In this document: in pieces, positions 11,691-19,388 of the stretch
How the letters are laid out: every line of letters starts with the position of its first letter
How positions within the stretch are numbered: the stretch's first letter is position 1
From: Methylotenera sp.
GTDB lineage: Bacteria; Pseudomonadota; Gammaproteobacteria; Burkholderiales; Methylophilaceae
Direction: 5' to 3'
Assembly: GCF_029945535.1 (NCBI RefSeq)
Contig: NZ_JAQSCU010000010.1
Coordinates: 567,290-631,289, forward strand
DNA: 64,000 bases
Notes under the pieces: model-generated
Told to the model about the DNA's origin: nothing
Seen by the model: the letters and a program-made list of their open reading frames with translations, nothing else
Database searches by the model: none
Position numbers and translations under genes: made by a program

Positions 11691-13577
11691 CTACAAGCTA
11701 AATACGTTCATAGCGCCGCCACCTGGCGCAGCGTTGTACTTAGTTAATTCTTTGTAACCACCAGCAGCACCAAGGCCATCGGTTTCATTGGTTAAGCCAA
11801 GGTTCATTGCCACGCCAGCCCAGCCACCAATACCTGATAGCACGGCAACGTATTGTTTACCTTTGTGACCGTATGTAATGGCATTACCAACCACGCCAGA
11901 ACCTACTTGGAATTTCCAAAGCTCTTTACCTGTTTTGGCATCAAGCGCTTTTACCCAGCGATCTAATGTACCGTAGAACACTAAATCAGAAGCCGTAACT
12001 AAAGCACCGCCCCAAGCTGAGAACTTCTCTTTGTTATACCAAGCAGATTTACCAGTTAGACCGTTCCATGCCATGAAGCCACCCATCACGCCATCAGGGC
12101 CTGCAAACATGGTCAGGGTTGAACCAACCCATGGTTGACCAGCTACGTATTTAGATTCAACTGGCTCATAAGTCATACATACATGGTTAAGCGGCACGTA
12201 AAACATTTTGGTTTTAGGTGAGAACGCTGAGGGTTGTTCATCTTTAACACCTAAAGCTGACGGGCAAATGCCTTTAGCGTTGTAGTCTTGGTGAGTTGAG
12301 TATTTTGGATCTTTAATCGGCACACCTGATTTCATGTCGATAGAAGTTGCCCAGTTCACGAATGGGTTCATTTTTTGCGCAACTAACAAAGTGCCGTTAG
12401 TGCGGTCAAATGTATAACCAAAGCCGTTACGGTCAAAATGTGAAGCTAGTTTCTTGCCATTAGCATCCCATAATACAATCTCATTCATGCCGTCATAATC
12501 CCACTCATCATGTGGCGTCATTTGGTAGCCCCATTTTGCCACGCCAGTGTCTAAGTCACGTGCAAAAATCGTCATAGACCATTTGTTATCACCTGGACGT
12601 ACATCCGGATTCCAAGTGCCAGGGTTACCTGTACCGTAGTACATCAAATTAAGTGCTGGATCATATGAGTACCAACCCCATGTAGGGCCGCCACCAGTTT
12701 GCCAACCATCTTTTCTAGCTTGTGGTTTTAACCAAGTTCTTACACCTAGATTAGCTTCTGGGTATTTTAAGTTTTCTTTAGGAATAGCTTTGAATGAACC
12801 ACCTAGCTTATTACCACCATTCACATCTTCATAAACTGATAATGCGCTGTAGTGCGGATTTTCTTTATTGAAGTCTTTGCCAATTAACATTTCATCATCT
12901 GGGCCTGTGCTGTATGCACGCCAAACCAACGCACCATCTTTAATGTTATAAGCTGAGATGTAGCAGCGTACGCCAAACTCACCACCTGAACAGCCAGTGA
13001 TTACTTTGTCTTTAAACACGTGTGGAGCATTGGTGTTTGATGAGCCTGATTTAGGATCAGTCACTTTAGTATCCCAAATGGCTTTACCTGTTTTGGCATC
13101 TAATGCAACTAAAACACCGTCATTCTGTTGCAGGAAAATCTTGCCATCGCCGTAACCTAAGCCTTTGTTCACGTTGTCGCAACATAATACTGCTTGAACG
13201 CTAGCATCTTGTTTTGGAAAGTATGACCAAACAATTTTTTGATCATTGTTTAAGTCCAAAGCATATACGTTATTTGGAAATGCAGTATGGACGTACATAA
13301 TGTCGCCAACAACTAATGGTGCACCTTCGTGACCACGGTTAACACCTGTGGCGAATGTCCAAGCAAGTTTTAACTTTTTAACATTGCTTTTGTTGATTTG
13401 TGACAAACGGCTATAACCTGTGTTGCTGTAATCTTTACGTGGTTGAGTCCACTGATTATCATCGTTCATCAGTTTTAATTGTTCGTCATCAGCAAAAGCG
13501 GGTGTGCTCATTAAGCCAAAAAGTCCTGCGCTTAACACTAGGCCGGCACCAAATTTACGTTTAAATTGATGGTTCAT
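11691..13577 (-). CDS. xoxF: XoxF4-type lanthanide-dependent methanol dehydrogenase
   Basis: 628 residues from the ATG at 13577, which has an AGGA ribosome binding site; an upstream in-frame TTG at 13589 is less likely. This periplasmic PQQ enzyme oxidises methanol to formaldehyde or formate. A Sec signal peptide ends at PAFA (about residue 29). The vicinal disulfide CC is in QAVLCCDN, and the beta-propeller tryptophan-docking repeats (such as LDAKTGKELWKF) are present. In HDEWDYDGMNE, D360 is the expected catalytic base and D362, two residues on, is the extra aspartate that marks lanthanide-using XoxF; calcium MxaF has Ala there. Methylophilaceae XoxF4 is my best subgroup guess. No xoxG, xoxJ or mxa genes are adjacent. 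Confidence 0.93.
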   Translation of the reverse strand: MNHQFKRKFGAGLVLSAGLFGLMSTPAFADDEQLKLMNDDNQWTQPRKDYSNTGYSRLSQINKSNVKKLKLAWTFATGVNRGHEGAPLVVGDIMYVHTAFPNNVYALDLNNDQKIVWSYFPKQDASVQAVLCCDNVNKGLGYGDGKIFLQQNDGVLVALDAKTGKAIWDTKVTDPKSGSSNTNAPHVFKDKVITGCSGGEFGVRCYISAYNIKDGALVWRAYSTGPDDEMLIGKDFNKENPHYSALSVYEDVNGGNKLGGSFKAIPKENLKYPEANLGVRTWLKPQARKDGWQTGGGPTWGWYSYDPALNLMYYGTGNPGTWNPDVRPGDNKWSMTIFARDLDTGVAKWGYQMTPHDEWDYDGMNEIVLWDANGKKLASHFDRNGFGYTFDRTNGTLLVAQKMNPFVNWATSIDMKSGVPIKDPKYSTHQDYNAKGICPSALGVKDEQPSAFSPKTKMFYVPLNHVCMTYEPVESKYVAGQPWVGSTLTMFAGPDGVMGGFMAWNGLTGKSAWYNKEKFSAWGGALVTASDLVFYGTLDRWVKALDAKTGKELWKFQVGSGVVGNAITYGHKGKQYVAVLSGIGGWAGVAMNLGLTNETDGLGAAGGYKELTKYNAAPGGGAMNVFSL

Positions 13578-13640
13578 ATTTATCCTCAAATATAATATTT
13601 TTTAAGTTGTGTATTGCTCATGTCGCGCATTGAACGATAT

Positions 13641-13663
13641 TTGTAACAATGTGACTGTTGCAA
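13641..13663. repeat. Inverted repeat near the predicted xoxF transcription start
   Basis: TTGTAACA (13641-13648), 7 bases, TGTTGCAA (13656-13663), matching at 7 of 8 positions. It covers the start site predicted from the sigma-54 element (about 13662), so it could be an operator or part of the leader. A further ATTGAAC half-site lies at 13629-13635. Confidence 0.4.
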
Positions 13664-13672
13664 TGTAGTTAT

Positions 13673-13689
13673 TGCAATTGATGTGCCAA
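13673..13689 (-). promoter_or_regulatory. Sigma-54 (-24/-12) promoter of xoxF
   Basis: Read on the minus strand: TTGGCACATCAATTGCA. This matches YTGGCACGRNNNTTGCW at all of TTGGCAC and TTGCA with exact spacing; only the two bases between the blocks' conserved cores differ. It puts transcription start near 13662, giving a leader of about 85 bases before the xoxF ATG. The divergent gene encodes a sigma-54 activator with the GAFTGA loop, which strongly supports the call. Confidence 0.85.
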
Positions 13690-13814
13690 CATCAAAAATT
13701 GGCAATATAAAGTAGTTTTAACGGAATAAAATGGTTTAAAATCAATCAACTATTTTTATTAAATGCTCGTATGCGTTGGTGAGATATTCATTAATTTTTT
13801 AATACTGTGTCAAT

Positions 13815-13847
13815 ATTGAACAATGTGTTACGTGACAGTTGTTCAAT
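13815..13847. promoter_or_regulatory. Candidate upstream activator site for the sigma-54 regulator
   Basis: ATTGAACAA (13815-13823), 15 bases, TTGTTCAAT (13839-13847) is a perfect 9-bp inverted repeat. The spacer contains TGTTACGTGACA, itself near-palindromic (10 of 12). The site is about 150-185 bases upstream of the predicted xoxF start and 37-69 bases before the regulator's ATG. That suits both enhancer activation of xoxF and autoregulation of the divergent gene. Confidence 0.5.
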
Positions 13848-13883
13848 TAAGTTGCTCACCCGAATTGGAAGCTTTACTAGGTC

Positions 13884-15809
13884 ATGAATCATTTTTCGAT
13901 AGATCGCACGCAGAGCGTTTCGCAAGCCAGAAACGACTTCTTAACCAAAGGCAATGTTGAGCAAGGCAGTATTGCCGAAGCCATAGAGCGCTCGTGGCGG
14001 CGTTGTCTTGCCAATGGCGTGAATGCCCATTCACCATCTAATTTGGAAGTCATTACAGCTCAAGAACTCGCGCTGAAGCGTGAGCAAAATCGCCAGTTGC
14101 TTTCACTTGCTCTACCCGAAATGGAAACCCTGAACGAGCAAATTGCGCATACGCGGAATATTGTGATTTTGACTGATGACCAAGGGGTGATTTTAAATAG
14201 CCTAGGCGGCCATCATTTGCTAAGAGAAGAGCAACGCATTGCCCTGTCGCCGGGCGCATCTTGGCGTGAAGACCATCGTGGGACCAATGCCATCGGCACC
14301 GTGTTGATAGAGCAATCTGCCATGACAGTGCAGGGTGCCGAACACTTTATGGCTTACCATCACTCGCTGAGTTGTTCTGCTGTGCCTATCTTTGGCGCCA
14401 AAAATCAACTGATTGCCACACTAGATGTATCGAATGACTCGAACACTTCGCAGCAGCACACGTTGGCGTTAGTCAAAATGTCTGCGCAGATGATTGAAAA
14501 TAGGCTTTTCTTAGCCAGCCATCAAAGCGATATCGTCTTACATTTTCATGCGAGGCCTGAGTTTATCGGTACCTTGTGGGAAGGCGTTGCTATGTTTACT
14601 GAAACTGGACAATTAGTGGCGAATAATCGTAGTGGGCAATTTCAACTCAGCCTAAATTCGCAAAATAGTCAGCCAATTGATTTTGAAAATATTTTTGATA
14701 TTCCGCTCGCAAATTTACTCAGACAAATGAATGGTGCTGATAAGTTAATCGTGCCATTACGATTGAATAACGGTGCGCGACTTTATGTGAAAGTAGAAAC
14801 GTTGCATAAACAGCAGCAATCCGCAGTGGCTACACGTGAAGTGAAAAGAGCTAGTGCGGCTAATTTAGATTTATTGAATAGCGGCGATGCTAAAGTTGCG
14901 CATGCGATTCAACAAATTAAAAAAGTGTTGAACCGTGATATTCCTATTTTGATTCAAGGTGAAACTGGCGTGGGTAAAGAGCTATTCGCTCGTGCGATTC
15001 ACGAGGCAAGCCCGCAACACAAAGGGCCGTGGATAGCAGTCAACTGTGCAGCCTTGCCAGAAGGCTTGATTGAAGCGGAGTTATTCGGCTACGAAGAAGG
15101 CGCATTTACTGGCGCTAAGCGTAAGGGTAGTGCGGGTAAAATAGAGCAAGCAGATGGCGGAACGCTATTTTTGGACGAAATCGGTGATATGCCGCTGGCC
15201 TTGCAAGCACGCCTATTACGCGTTCTTCAAGAACGCAAAGTCACTCCTTTAGGCAGCACAAAGTCTATTCCAGTGAACTTTGGATTGGTAAGCGCCACTA
15301 ATCAAAAGTTGAAAGAAAAAGTAGAATCTGGCGAGTTTAGAAGTGACTTGTATTATCGTCTAAATGGTTTGAGTGTGGCTTTGCCAGCATTGCGAGACCG
15401 TACTGACTTGCAGGCACTTATTGATGTCATTCTTCAGGTTGAGCAAACAAGTGACATTAATATTTCTTCTGAAGTGATGGTGGTTTTTAAAACGCATCCT
15501 TGGCCAGGTAATATTCGTCAATTACACAATGTGTTAAGAACTGCTTTAGCACTTGCAGATGGCGATGAGATTAGTGAGACACACCTTACGCAAGATTTTA
15601 TAGATGAGTTTCAAGGCCTAAATTTAGGCACTCTGCTACAACCTAAAATAGCCTCACCAAAAACTTTGGCGTTAGATTATTTAGCCGAAGATGCCATACG
15701 CTCGGCTATGCAACAACACGTTGGCAATATCTCAGCAGTGGCGCGTCAGCTTGGTATTAGCCGTAATACGTTGTATCGAAAATTGAAATTAATCGGGCTG
15801 GTTTCTTAG
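13884..15809 (+). CDS. AcoR-type sigma-54 dependent transcriptional activator
   Basis: 641 residues. Domains in order: an N-terminal helical segment with SWRRC, a GAF-like sensor (about 70-220) with the AcoR-type signature SWREDHRGTNAIGTVL and CSAVPIF, an AAA+ domain (about 325-545) with Walker A GETGVGKE near residue 359 and the sigma-54 contact loop GAFTGA near 405, and a C-terminal Fis-type helix-turn-helix (about 615-638, ISAVARQLGISRNTLYRKLK). AcoR-like proteins sense small metabolites such as acetoin or aldehydes. The gene is divergent from xoxF, which has a sigma-54 promoter, so it is probably the xoxF activator and may sense methanol, formaldehyde or metal state (inference). GGAAG, about 11 bases before the ATG, is a weak ribosome binding site. 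Confidence 0.9.
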   Translation: MNHFSIDRTQSVSQARNDFLTKGNVEQGSIAEAIERSWRRCLANGVNAHSPSNLEVITAQELALKREQNRQLLSLALPEMETLNEQIAHTRNIVILTDDQGVILNSLGGHHLLREEQRIALSPGASWREDHRGTNAIGTVLIEQSAMTVQGAEHFMAYHHSLSCSAVPIFGAKNQLIATLDVSNDSNTSQQHTLALVKMSAQMIENRLFLASHQSDIVLHFHARPEFIGTLWEGVAMFTETGQLVANNRSGQFQLSLNSQNSQPIDFENIFDIPLANLLRQMNGADKLIVPLRLNNGARLYVKVETLHKQQQSAVATREVKRASAANLDLLNSGDAKVAHAIQQIKKVLNRDIPILIQGETGVGKELFARAIHEASPQHKGPWIAVNCAALPEGLIEAELFGYEEGAFTGAKRKGSAGKIEQADGGTLFLDEIGDMPLALQARLLRVLQERKVTPLGSTKSIPVNFGLVSATNQKLKEKVESGEFRSDLYYRLNGLSVALPALRDRTDLQALIDVILQVEQTSDINISSEVMVVFKTHPWPGNIRQLHNVLRTALALADGDEISETHLTQDFIDEFQGLNLGTLLQPKIASPKTLALDYLAEDAIRSAMQQHVGNISAVARQLGISRNTLYRKLKLIGLVS

Positions 15810-15880: not shown

Positions 15881-15896
15881 TGTTATAATAAATTCA
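15881..15896 (+). promoter_or_regulatory. Candidate Zur box overlapping a -10 element
   Basis: TGTTATAATAAATTCA. The left half agrees with the proteobacterial Zur core GTTATAATATAAC over nine bases; the right half is degenerate. It contains TATAAT (15884-15889), so a bound repressor would block the promoter. The start site would fall at or next to the ATG at 15896, and there is no ribosome binding site, suggesting a leaderless message. Confidence 0.4.
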
Positions 15897-16240
15897 TGAT
15901 TCGTCGTTCATTTCTGACCTTATTCTTTGCTGTGCTGCTCGTATTTGGGCAGCAACAGGCGATGGTGCATGCTTATGTGCATACGGCAGACCTGCAACAA
16001 AAGACTTCCAATCAGCAGACTTTAAATCAAAAGTCTTCAAGTGAAGATAAGTCTAGCAATCATGCTGAAGTGTGCGGAAAGTGCTTATCACTTGCTGGCC
16101 TCACTGCGGCTATTGGTTCGCAAGCGCATATTCTCAATATTGCTTCAGGGCAATTTGAACTGTTGACGGCGTTACACCAGTCCGTCATTTCCACACGTTT
16201 CTCTTCTTACCGTTCTCGCGCTCCGCCTATCCTCGCTTAG
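15896..16240 (+). CDS. Small exported His/CxxC protein, DUF2946-like
   Basis: 114 residues. A signal peptide (MIRRSFLTLFFAVLLVFGQQQAMVHA) is followed by a Gln/Ser/Lys-rich linker, then HAEVCGKCLSLAGL. The H-x3-C-x2-C group resembles the DUF2946-type small proteins found beside copper and zinc transport genes and could bind a metal in the periplasm. It is the first gene of an operon with an outer-membrane barrel and a metal ABC binding protein and permease. A Zur-like palindrome overlaps its start region. Assignment to DUF2946 is tentative; the metal link comes from the neighbours. Confidence 0.7.
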   Translation: MIRRSFLTLFFAVLLVFGQQQAMVHAYVHTADLQQKTSNQQTLNQKSSSEDKSSNHAEVCGKCLSLAGLTAAIGSQAHILNIASGQFELLTALHQSVISTRFSSYRSRAPPILA

Positions 16241-16306
16241 TACTTAAATCTTAATCCATTCCTGTTAAGGCATGGTTTTATTTATTTTTGCAACGACGAG
16301 GTTCAC

Positions 16307-17653
16307 ATGTTCAATCAAAAAGTATTGGTGCGCGCCATTGCGCTTACCTTCCTGCTGCCTGCTGCAGCAAAAGCAAACGATAGCAACGAATTAGAAGCAT
16401 TACGCGCTGAAATTCAGCAAATGAAACAGAGTTATGAGTCGCGTATTCAAACCTTAGAATCACGGTTACAAACGACTGAAACAGTCGCGGGTGAGGCGGG
16501 TAAAAAGGCTGAAGAAGCCTCTGTACAAGCGAGCGCCAGACCAACTGCCAGCAATGCGCTTAATCCTGATATTTCTTTAATCTTATCGGGTACTTATGCT
16601 AACCGTTCTCAAGACTCTAAGTATCACATCACGGGTTTTCAGGCAGGTGGTGAAATTGGACCTGGCACCAAAGGATTTAATTTAGGTGAATCTGAATTGG
16701 GTGTTTATGCCAGTGTAGACCCTAATTTTTATGGCGGCCTTAACTTAGCCTTAGCGCCAGACAATACCATAGGCGTGGAGGAGGCTTTTATACAAACAAC
16801 CACCTTGCCTTACGGCGTCACGCTTAAAGCCGGACGATTCTTTTCCAGCATTGGTTATCTAAATGACCAACATGCTCATACTTGGGATTTTGTAGATAAC
16901 CCATTGGCTTATCAGGCTTTCCTTGGCACTCAGTTTGGTGATGATGGTATACAACTGAAATGGTTAGCACCGACTGATATGTTTCTGGAACTTGGTGCTG
17001 AATATGGTCGTGGACGCATAGCTGATACAGAAGGCCGAGATAAAAATGGTGGCGGCGCTGGTTCAATATTTGCCCATGTAGGGGGTGATTTAGGTATTAA
17101 CAGTAGTTGGCGCGCAGGTTTGTCATATCTAGAGGTTTCACCTAAAGATAGGCAGTCTGACGACTTGGATGCCTCAGCTGCTGAAGTGACCAATAGCTTC
17201 ACAGGCAATAGTAAAGTTTGGCTAGCCGACTTTGTATGGAAATGGGCGCCTAATGGTAATGCAACTAATACCAGCTTTAAGTTGCAGGGTGAATATCTGC
17301 ATCGTAAAGAGAGTGGCGATTTGACTAACGACAGTGGTATTAATAATTACAATGCATCGCAAGATGGCTGGTACTTACAAGGTGTTTATAAATTCTTGCC
17401 ATACTGGCGCGCTGGCTTGCGTTACGACCAATTGAACAGCGGGAGTGTTAATTATGGTGATAACGCAGCTAATCTAGCGAATAGTAGCTACGACCCTAAA
17501 CGCGTCAGTGCCATGTTGGATTTTAGCCCAAGCGAATTCTCACGCATCCGCTTACAGGTCTCTAGCGATAAATCCCGCCAAGAAGCTACCGACAATCAAA
17601 TATTCATCCAGTACCAAATGAGCCTAGGCGCTCATGGCGCACACAAATATTAA
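16307..17653 (+). CDS. Outer-membrane beta-barrel protein of the metal uptake operon
   Basis: 448 residues. A signal peptide ends at AKAN (about residue 24). A coiled coil follows (about 27-60, ELEALRAEIQQMKQSYESRIQTLESRLQ), as in trimeric porins that carry an N-terminal periplasmic helix. The remaining 360 residues alternate as amphipathic strands with Gly/Asn/Asp loops, and the protein closes with a terminal strand ending in aromatic and basic residues (FIQYQMSLGAHGAHKY). It is not TonB-dependent: there is no plug or TonB box. Its place between a CxxC periplasmic protein and a zinc-type binding protein suggests a channel that lets zinc or a zinc complex cross the outer membrane. RBS is GAGG. 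Confidence 0.8.
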   Translation: MFNQKVLVRAIALTFLLPAAAKANDSNELEALRAEIQQMKQSYESRIQTLESRLQTTETVAGEAGKKAEEASVQASARPTASNALNPDISLILSGTYANRSQDSKYHITGFQAGGEIGPGTKGFNLGESELGVYASVDPNFYGGLNLALAPDNTIGVEEAFIQTTTLPYGVTLKAGRFFSSIGYLNDQHAHTWDFVDNPLAYQAFLGTQFGDDGIQLKWLAPTDMFLELGAEYGRGRIADTEGRDKNGGGAGSIFAHVGGDLGINSSWRAGLSYLEVSPKDRQSDDLDASAAEVTNSFTGNSKVWLADFVWKWAPNGNATNTSFKLQGEYLHRKESGDLTNDSGINNYNASQDGWYLQGVYKFLPYWRAGLRYDQLNSGSVNYGDNAANLANSSYDPKRVSAMLDFSPSEFSRIRLQVSSDKSRQEATDNQIFIQYQMSLGAHGAHKY

Positions 17654-17664
17654 GGAGATCTTAG

Positions 17665-18570
17665 ATGAAATATATATTCAAAGCATTATCACTAGCTGTA
17701 TTACTAGCTACAGCACAATCTGCACAAGCTGCACTTAATGTATTTGCCTGCGAGCCAGAGTGGGGTGCGCTTGCGCAAGAGCTTGGTGGCGATAAAGTCA
17801 CTGTATTTACCGCAACTAATGCCCTGCAAGATGTTCACCATATTGAAGCTAAACCTAGCCTAGTTGCGCAGTTGCGCAAGGCTGATTTACTGGTATGTAC
17901 AGGCTCTGAACTGGAGATTGGCTGGCTGCCTGTATTGCTACGTCAAGCAGGCAATACCAATGTATTAGCTGGCAAGGCGGGTAATTTTGAGGCTGCGCAT
18001 TATGTGCGCATGTTAGAAATACCAAGCCGTCTAGACCGTGCGGATGGTGACGTGCATCCAGGTGGCAATCCGCATATTCAAACTGACCCGCGCAATATTT
18101 CTAAAGTGGGTGATGCCTTGTCTCAGCGACTTGCTGAAATCGATGCGCCTAATGCTTTGTTTTACCAAGCTAAGCATAAAGATTTTGCGCAACGCTGGCA
18201 AGATGCAAGCAAGCGTTGGGAAGCTCAGGCAGCACCGCTTAAAGGCATGGCTATCGTCGTGCAGCACAAAGGCTTTCCCTATTTAGAAGATTGGCTGGGC
18301 TTACGTGAAGTAGCAACGCTAGAGCCAAAACCAGGCGTTGAGCCAACCAGTAGCCACCTTAACGAGGTACTTACGCAGTTGGAGCGTCAGCCTGCGAAGA
18401 TGGTGATTAGAGCGGCATACAACAGCGAGCGTCCATCGCAATGGCTATCAGAGAAAGCTAAGATTCCAGCGGTAGCGTTGCCATTTACAGTAGGCGGGTC
18501 AGATCGTGCCAAAGACCTGTTTTCTTTATTTAACGACACCGTGCAACGTCTTTTAGATGCGGCTAAGTAA
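17665..18570 (+). CDS. Zinc/manganese ABC transporter substrate-binding protein (ZnuA-like)
   Basis: 301 residues of the cluster A-I (TroA/ZnuA) binding-protein family. The signal peptide ends at QSAQAA. Metal-ligand candidates are the histidines in QDVHHIEAKPS, H in GNPHIQTDPRN, H in QHKGFPY, and an acidic residue near the C-terminus. It lacks the long His-rich loop of E. coli ZnuA. AGGAG precedes the ATG, 12 bases after the barrel gene, so the two are co-translated. It would hand zinc to the permease encoded next. No ATP-binding subunit is encoded in the cluster. Confidence 0.9.
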   Translation: MKYIFKALSLAVLLATAQSAQAALNVFACEPEWGALAQELGGDKVTVFTATNALQDVHHIEAKPSLVAQLRKADLLVCTGSELEIGWLPVLLRQAGNTNVLAGKAGNFEAAHYVRMLEIPSRLDRADGDVHPGGNPHIQTDPRNISKVGDALSQRLAEIDAPNALFYQAKHKDFAQRWQDASKRWEAQAAPLKGMAIVVQHKGFPYLEDWLGLREVATLEPKPGVEPTSSHLNEVLTQLERQPAKMVIRAAYNSERPSQWLSEKAKIPAVALPFTVGGSDRAKDLFSLFNDTVQRLLDAAK

Positions 18571-18620
18571 AGCTTGATGATTATTTGGATTGCTAATAGA
18601 TTGACCTACGGAGCGTACTA

Positions 18621-19388
18621 ATGAATCTTGATACCTTAAATCTTAATATCCTTGGCCCAGCGTTTTTAGCTGGCTTATTAGTACTGGCAACGCATGTGCC
18701 ACTCGGTCAGCAAGTGCTTAAGCGAGGCATCGTATTTATCGACCTCGCGGTGGCACAAATTGCTGCTTTGGGAGTGATTGCTGCCGATGCCATGGGCTGG
18801 GAGCCGCAAGGTATCAAGGTGCAAATTGCGGCAGTGAGCGCTGCTTTACTGGGCGCGTTACTACTCACTTGGACAGAGAAAAAGTGGCCAGAAGTTCAAG
18901 AGGCATTAATCGGTGTATTTTTTGTGTTGGCAGCCAGTGCAGGCATATTGTTACTGGCTAACAACCCGCACGGCGGCGAGCATTTAAAGGACTTGCTAGC
19001 TGGTCAGATTCTTTGGGTTAGCATGAGCCAGTTATTACCTGTTTCAATACTGTCAGTGCTTATATTAGCCGTATGGTTTGGCTTAAAAGATAAAATGGGT
19101 CGTGCGGGTTTTTATGGTTTGTTTGCTCTAGCTGTCACCGCTTCAGTGCAAATGGTAGGCATCTATTTAGTGTTTTCCAGCTTGATTATTCCAGCACTTG
19201 CTGTACGAAATTGGCCTGAATCCAGAAAAATGATAGGTGCATATTTAATTGGCTCAGCAGCTTATATATTCGGTTTAGCGTTATCAGCTATATTTGATTT
19301 GCCTTCAGGCGCTGTTATTGTTTGGTGTCTGGCGGCGGTGGGCGTGTTAGCTAATGTGTTTATTGTTAAATCTAAAGTCAGTGTTTAA
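18621..19388 (+). CDS. Metal ABC transporter permease (ZnuB-like)
   Basis: 255 residues with about seven to eight membrane helices, typical of the ABC-3 family (ZnuB/MntB/TroC). The conserved sequences QVLKRGIVFIDLAVAQIAALG and VGIYLVFSSLIIPALAVRNW, the latter close to the region that couples to the ATPase, are present. It follows the binding protein by 50 bases with a GGAG site. The operon ends here at a bidirectional terminator, so the energising ATPase must be encoded elsewhere or be shared with another transporter. Confidence 0.88.
   Translation: MNLDTLNLNILGPAFLAGLLVLATHVPLGQQVLKRGIVFIDLAVAQIAALGVIAADAMGWEPQGIKVQIAAVSAALLGALLLTWTEKKWPEVQEALIGVFFVLAASAGILLLANNPHGGEHLKDLLAGQILWVSMSQLLPVSILSVLILAVWFGLKDKMGRAGFYGLFALAVTASVQMVGIYLVFSSLIIPALAVRNWPESRKMIGAYLIGSAAYIFGLALSAIFDLPSGAVIVWCLAAVGVLANVFIVKSKVSV

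Follow-up and report, generated by a model that had tools for sequence, protein, structure and literature searches.

What controls transcription of a xoxF gene that lies back to back with a transcriptional activator in a Methylotenera genome? In other lineages, control of lanthanide enzymes has been described as two-component (PMC11845868). The xoxF copies of the Methylophilaceae are expressed differently, as reported in a section that gives no mechanism (PMC3728764). A sigma-54 regulator of the GAF-modulated kind is named for xox clusters in a figure legend whose species list includes Methylotenera mobilis JLW8 (PMC11845868), and thus the xox neighborhood is partly in print already; that legend is silent on promoter, operator, conservation, and mechanism, and in the open-licence PubMed Central text searched we found neither a sigma-54 promoter nor an operator described for xoxF. 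Here, we analyze a 64,000-nucleotide window (i.e., the whole stretch of DNA studied, from a 3.0-Mb Methylotenera sp. genome that is 99.99% complete) and argue that its xoxF gene is very probably read from a sigma-54 promoter that the divergent GAF/AAA+ activator would open via a TGT-N11-ACA operator. Table 1 collects the features on which this reading is built.

Table 1. Features of the xoxF–activator locus, in window coordinates.
Feature	Position	Strand	Basis
xoxF, lanthanide-type PQQ methanol dehydrogenase	11691..13577	-	profile, structure matches, ligand motifs
xoxF ATG	13577..13575	-	
Shine-Dalgarno-like GAGGA preceding the xoxF ATG	13583..13587	-	direct reading
Predicted xoxF transcription start	13662	-	predicted from spacing, 12 nt past the -12 C
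-24/-12 sigma-54 promoter TTGGCACATCAATTGCA	13673..13689	-	spacing; core kept in 42/42 linked loci
IHF-like site in the operator–promoter interval, matching 8 of 9 consensus positions	13744..13756	+	suggestive only
Operator (UAS) unit 1, TGTTCAATATTGACACA	13806..13822	-	Gibbs motif
Operator unit 2 position, degenerate in the window, 19 nt upstream of unit 1	13825..13841	-	offset peak
Palindrome TGTTACGTGACA inside operator unit 2	13826-13837		
9-bp perfect inverted repeat spanning the operator pair, arms 13815-13823 and 13839-13847	13815..13847		
Sigma-54 activator, 641 aa, GAF - AAA+ - Fis-type HTH	13884..15809	+	ORF and domain search
GAFTGA loop, residues 406-411, sigma-54 contact	15099..15116	+	

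The Divergent Gene Pair

The intergenic stretch between the two divergent genes spans 13578-13883 (306 bases). The product of the minus-strand gene belongs to the PQQ dehydrogenase family (TIGR03075, PQQ methanol/ethanol dehydrogenase; 648 bits against a cut-off of 480), has a XoxF enzyme as its best solved-structure match (6oc5; E 2.1e-221), and carries the Glu/Asn/Asp/Asp metal-ligand motifs including the extra Asp, which together place it in the XoxF class. As a Methylophilaceae copy it presumably falls in XoxF clade 4. The genome encodes three full XoxF copies, the other two being 76% and 74% identical to the linked one; judged from sequence, the 74% copy adjoins a gene for an xoxJ-like binding protein and the linked xoxF does not. 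A PQQ-dehydrogenase-like frame with 36–39% identity to XoxF also lies just past the window end (G000:C10:631683-633335).

The plus-strand gene encodes an activator with Pfam matches to GAF (residues 87-208), Sigma54_activat (335-498), an AAA lid, and HTH_8 (604-635), i.e., the GAF, GAFTGA-bearing AAA+, and Fis-type HTH architecture of an AcoR-type enhancer-binding protein. A receiver domain, as a two-component lanthanide switch would have, is absent among its Pfam families, and no NCBIfam sigma-54 activator equivalog (PrdR, DhaR, PrpR, NifA, NorR, etc.) reached its cut-off among the best 25 of 28 rows, the highest scores being those of PrdR (312 bits; 795 needed) and DhaR (307; 551 needed). 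Of 25 representatives, 20 have exactly GAFTGA as their sigma-54 contact loop, and the other 5, all of one genus (L068, L070, L071, L077, L080), have GAYTGA. The source genome has rpoN, as do 141 of 150 family genomes including all 48 with an activator match, a co-occurrence that is consistent with sigma-54 control and constitutes weak evidence for it.

Downstream of the activator, 15896-19388 (+) encodes a DUF2946-like protein (just below cut-off), a ZnuA-type binding protein, an ABC-3 permease, and a protein without Pfam match that is outer-membrane-like in appearance; this is probably a zinc-type metal uptake cluster.

A Probable Sigma-54 Promoter Specific to One XoxF Lineage

A preliminary description of this DNA had reported exact -24/-12 spacing on the minus strand upstream of xoxF and expected transcription to start near 13662. 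Both readings hold: the site has the form TTGGCAC-N5-TTGCA, in which exactly 10 bases lie between the GG and the GC of TGGCAY...TTGC, as a sigma-54 promoter sequence should have, and counting from the -12 element (C13674) gives the same predicted start, 85 nt from the xoxF ATG. The core pattern TGGCAYNNNNNTTGC occurs 58 times in the genome (both strands, 3.0 Mb; reversed-pattern control, 7), and at 58 per genome only ~0.003 matches would be expected by chance on one strand of 13578-13883. Another exact TGGCAY-N5-TTGC at 18687-18701 (-), within the ABC permease gene and antisense to it, is probably a chance match.

Conservation was assessed in 150 family genomes (activator search at E <= 1e-100, with at most eight first-look candidates scored per genome), which yielded at least 55 activator matches in at least 48 genomes and left at most 102 genomes without one; ~9.4 kb around the 54 other matches was compared, less at some contig ends. 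In 42 of the 55 matches, xoxF stands divergent beside the activator. These 42 linked loci are kin and do not amount to 42 independent tests; every one of them has TGGCAY-N5-TTGC facing xoxF, with consensus scores of 10–12 out of 12. TGGCA and TTGC never vary, the base after TGGCA is C in 29 loci and T in 13, and the spacer bases are mixed; constant boxes around a changing spacer are the pattern expected from selection on a sigma-54 promoter. On the opposite strand, the 42 linked intergenic regions have no TGGCAY-N5-TTGC, and first-order Markov shuffles of these regions gave the exact pattern 62 times in 21,000 and a looser score of at least 10 of 12 in 426 of 21,000. The linked XoxF proteins also retain the lanthanide-type metal ligands (42/42; XoxF rows overall, 44/44).

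Decay is apparent in two of the 42 pairs: L057, where the activator has an internal stop and xoxF aligns from residue 151 only, and L100, where the activator aligns over residues 103-394 only and a stop is reported. Three genomes (G010, G053, and G071) hold two xoxF-linked pairs each, the second pair of G071 being decayed.

As a control, we took 52 regions upstream of further xoxF copies, hand-chosen among the matches listed. Three of them (L188, L191, L192) have TGGCAY-N5-TTGC, and their xoxF genes, 82–86% identical to that of the window, are taken as orthologs of the linked xoxF; in L191 and L192 an activator fragment lies upstream, where the contigs end. The exact pattern occurs in none of the remaining 49 regions (L197 alone scores 10 of 12), nor is the -24/-12 element present at either remaining xoxF of the source genome. 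Because it is absent from these 49 non-orthologous regions, the promoter is a feature of one XoxF lineage and not of XoxF generally.

These comparisons bear on whether xoxF is instead transcribed from an ordinary sigma-70 promoter, with the -24/-12 match arising by coincidence. A sigma-70-like match (9 of 12) does overlap the site, but it is the only one in 13500-13950, where 2.0 are expected by chance; moreover, such a coincidence would have to account for both boxes being conserved with a free spacer in 42/42 loci, and for the absence of the pattern from 49/49 non-orthologous control regions. We regard the sigma-70 reading as very improbable and proceed with a sigma-54 promoter.

A Conserved Operator Between Activator and xoxF

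A Gibbs motif search of 31 dereplicated regions upstream of linked xoxF returned TGTTCAATNNTGACACA in Methylotenera and TGT-N11-ACA generally. In 30 of 31 regions this motif stands 101–143 nt upstream of the -24 box; in L064 the search placed it elsewhere. Among its key bases, ACA is kept in 30/30 and TGT in 28/30 (L057 and L058 deviate), and a repeat run gave 18.7 bits, a value to compare with the 10.0 that none of 20 shuffled sets exceeded. A second copy is indicated by a peak of agreement at offset -19 (mean 3.52 of 6 key bases, 31 representatives), the highest on the upstream side, where other offsets range from 0.5 to 2.6 of 6; values of 2.9 and 3.3 at the downstream-side offsets +8 and +10 are read as the motif overlapping itself. 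The unit 2 palindrome was rejected as a specific site on its own (25 genome matches with at most one mismatch against 16 for its control) and, because it stands at genome background, only the longer operator was counted as specific.

In this window the operator pair (~13806-13841) lies some 120–155 bp upstream of the -24 box and 37–78 bp upstream of the activator start, a proximity that makes autorepression possible. Exact TGTTCAATNNTGACACA occurs once in the genome, in the xoxF–activator intergenic region, and allowing two mismatches adds four further matches, the level of the control (6). As the exact operator is single in the genome, xoxF is probably the dedicated target of the activator and its strongest candidate. 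The suggestion of the preliminary description that xoxF has dedicated sigma-54 control is thus supported by conservation, for one of the three xoxF copies; the check it proposed, conservation of the -24/-12 element, found the element retained in 42/42 linked pairs and a matching operator conserved with it.

We propose the following mechanism. The sigma-54 promoter (13689..13673) would remain silent until the activator opens it. The Fis-type HTH would bind the TGT-N11-ACA pair, and the GAF domain would restrain the AAA+ ring until a small effector binds; the ring would then hydrolyze ATP, touch sigma-54 via GAFTGA, and open the promoter by DNA looping. IHF perhaps aids this looping in some genera: among the 31 representatives, perfect IHF-like sites number 8 (0.37 expected) and sites with at least 8 of 9 positions number 16 (7.0 expected), the good ones being mostly in two genera, with a mean per-locus shuffle p of 0.47. 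Helical phasing between operator and promoter was considered from 12 hand-picked distances (Rayleigh p ~0.03, uncorrected for kinship) and is not relied on.

Could the promoter be real and yet be driven by another enhancer-binding protein (e.g., of NtrC type), with the neighbor regulating something else? The genome holds seven strong sigma-54 activator domains, of which only the xoxF-linked one matched the activator query (E <= 1e-100). In one family genome (G018; L188/L242), an orthologous xoxF is preceded by the sigma-54 site and by a pair of TGT-N11-ACA units spaced 19 nt apart, and no activator was found within ~3.2 kb upstream of that xoxF; there, the nearest sister activator, L084, located elsewhere beside an aldehyde dehydrogenase gene, might act in trans. 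Such a division of labor would, however, leave three things to be explained: activator, operator, and promoter are retained together in linked loci, the exact operator is found only at the xoxF locus genome-wide, and TGT-N11-ACA also lies between related activators and aldehyde dehydrogenase genes (below). Control by another activator is accordingly improbable in our judgment, and the adjacent activator remains the favored partner of the promoter.

A converse arrangement is seen in G062, whose two identical activator loci (L078 and L079; 9.4-kb stretches ~143 kb apart) are without xoxF. They retain an operator unit, have no sigma-54 site in 546 bases on one strand, and have, by eye, a phage-tail-sheath-like frame nearby.

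Probable Recruitment from an Aldehyde Dehydrogenase Activator

Where did this activator come from? The preliminary description classed it as AcoR-type with an intact GAFTGA loop; class and loop stand, and we add that its nearest kin adjoin an aldehyde dehydrogenase gene. Among the 13 family matches without xoxF, 11 lie near a gene for a ~506-aa aldehyde dehydrogenase (PF00171), directly adjoining it in 10 (L093 has an intervening reading frame), and the two G062 loci have neither gene. In a scan of GTDB species, the best 80 activator loci comprise 4 Methylophilaceae loci with xoxF and 76 others; in these, no XoxF-like match within the stretch examined exceeds 44% identity. Of the 76, 28 have an aldehyde dehydrogenase match in that stretch, 24 of them at >=67% identity.

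An activator tree (75 rows, quick method, with 25 of the 42 linked activators) unites the xoxF-linked activators and one G062 row in a single group (SH-aLRT 99), followed outward by L084, a family locus beside aldehyde dehydrogenase (SH-aLRT 99), and then by the remaining aldehyde-dehydrogenase-linked family activators (SH-aLRT 90). Because the xoxF-linked activators nest among aldehyde-dehydrogenase-linked ones, the tree points to one recruitment of xoxF within the Methylophilaceae; on its simplest reading, it suggests that an aldehyde dehydrogenase activator recruited xoxF a single time, with duplication afterwards.

The operator would predate this change of target. TGT-N11-ACA lies between related activators and aldehyde dehydrogenase at 17 of 27 loci (15/17 outside the family, 2/10 inside it), against a chance level of ~0.1 per locus obtained by arithmetic and not from a shuffle control, which supports an ancestral operator form. 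The strict -24/-12 pattern occurs in L084 only, of 10 family aldehyde dehydrogenase loci scanned. By eye, L089 and L094-L099 have a weaker AGGCAY-N5-CTGC upstream of aldehyde dehydrogenase, and several of them have TGTCTCA/TGAGACA-like repeats, which suggests that operator and promoter may have changed together with the target at these loci.

Which Effector?

We favor short alcohols and aldehydes of the pathway (methanol or ethanol, formaldehyde or acetaldehyde) as the most likely effectors, by analogy, because the sister activators adjoin aldehyde dehydrogenase. Low expression is reported for the additional xoxF homologs of M. versatilis and M. glucosotrophus (PMC3728764); if these are orthologous to the linked xoxF, methanol may not suffice as the inducer. 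Six positions discriminate the xoxF-linked activators (n = 25) from 49 others, three of them in the GAF region: H89 (25/25), Q150 (24/25), and T179 (25/25), each present in at most 15% of the others. From sequence, these three residues are candidates for effector choice. An AlphaFold model of the activator (15 aligned sequences; mean pLDDT 62, below 50 over residues 128-163) is too weak for the GAF pocket to be read.

The same residues set the xoxF-linked activators apart in a way that a different sensor might require, i.e., a one-component lanthanide switch in which GAF binds the metal or a metal complex. Here, the GAF domain of a recruited aldehyde-pathway sensor would read lanthanide (or lanthanide plus methanol) status and switch xoxF via sigma-54, and the lanthanide-type ligands kept by all 42 linked XoxF proteins would fit such a signal. 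Yet none of the six discriminating residues is acidic, the promoter element is missing from the two unlinked xoxF copies in this genome, and the nearest kin of the activator adjoin a gene for an aldehyde dehydrogenase, a type of enzyme for which no lanthanide requirement is known. We consider lanthanide binding by this GAF domain quite unlikely, and equally doubt that it reads lanthanide status as a recruited aldehyde-pathway sensor. One-component, lanthanide-responsive sigma-54 control of a lanthanide enzyme is not described in the open-licence literature searched. The short alcohol or aldehyde remains our favored effector.

Comparison with Known Systems

The layout of the xoxF locus matches that described for BmoR and P(BMO) of Thauera butanivorans (PMC8899819), in which an alcohol-responsive sigma-54 enhancer-binding protein acts on an upstream inverted repeat; an IHF region is part of that layout too, and the -24/-12 promoter precedes an operon for alkane/alcohol oxidation (PMC8899819, PMC8784404). 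The likeness drawn here is one of described layout; there the target is a butane monooxygenase and the UAS is reported 193 bp upstream. MmoR of the soluble methane monooxygenase is described as combining a sigma-54 promoter with a GAF-type activator in a C1 oxidation operon, and the published mmo promoter consensus, YTGGCACGrNNNTTGCW, resembles the xoxF site; the enzyme is a different one, however, and mmoR sits inside the mmo operon, in methanotrophs (PMC5874634).

Other comparisons share the target class and differ in the regulator. Sigma-54 dependence is reported for exaA, encoding a PQQ alcohol dehydrogenase of Azospirillum brasilense (PMC6115532, citing Singh 2017), but its partner, as described there, is a LuxR-type response regulator and not a GAF/AAA+ protein, and the enzyme is ExaA, not XoxF (PMC6115532). 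MxbDM/MxcQE, MxaY-MxaB, and PedS2/PedR2 also act on genes for PQQ alcohol dehydrogenases, xoxF or pedH among them, and are described as two-component systems or orphan response regulators (PMC11845868); unlike these, the xoxF-linked activator has no receiver domain and faces a sigma-54 promoter. Nearest in the tree are the AcoR-type activators beside ExaC/AcoD-like aldehyde dehydrogenase, which share domain class and divergent layout and differ in that their target is a PF00171 enzyme.

Taken as a whole, the circuit is conserved and, as far as sequence can tell, apparently dedicated to one XoxF lineage; its design is ordinary, even textbook, and its target is new as far as searched. Here a sensor that once served aldehyde dehydrogenase has probably been rewired to a different enzyme, XoxF, and the xoxF locus is a candidate inducible promoter for these methylotrophs. 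For the family, an activator–operator–promoter unit at one xoxF lineage offers a sequence-predicted, testable account of copy-specific control.
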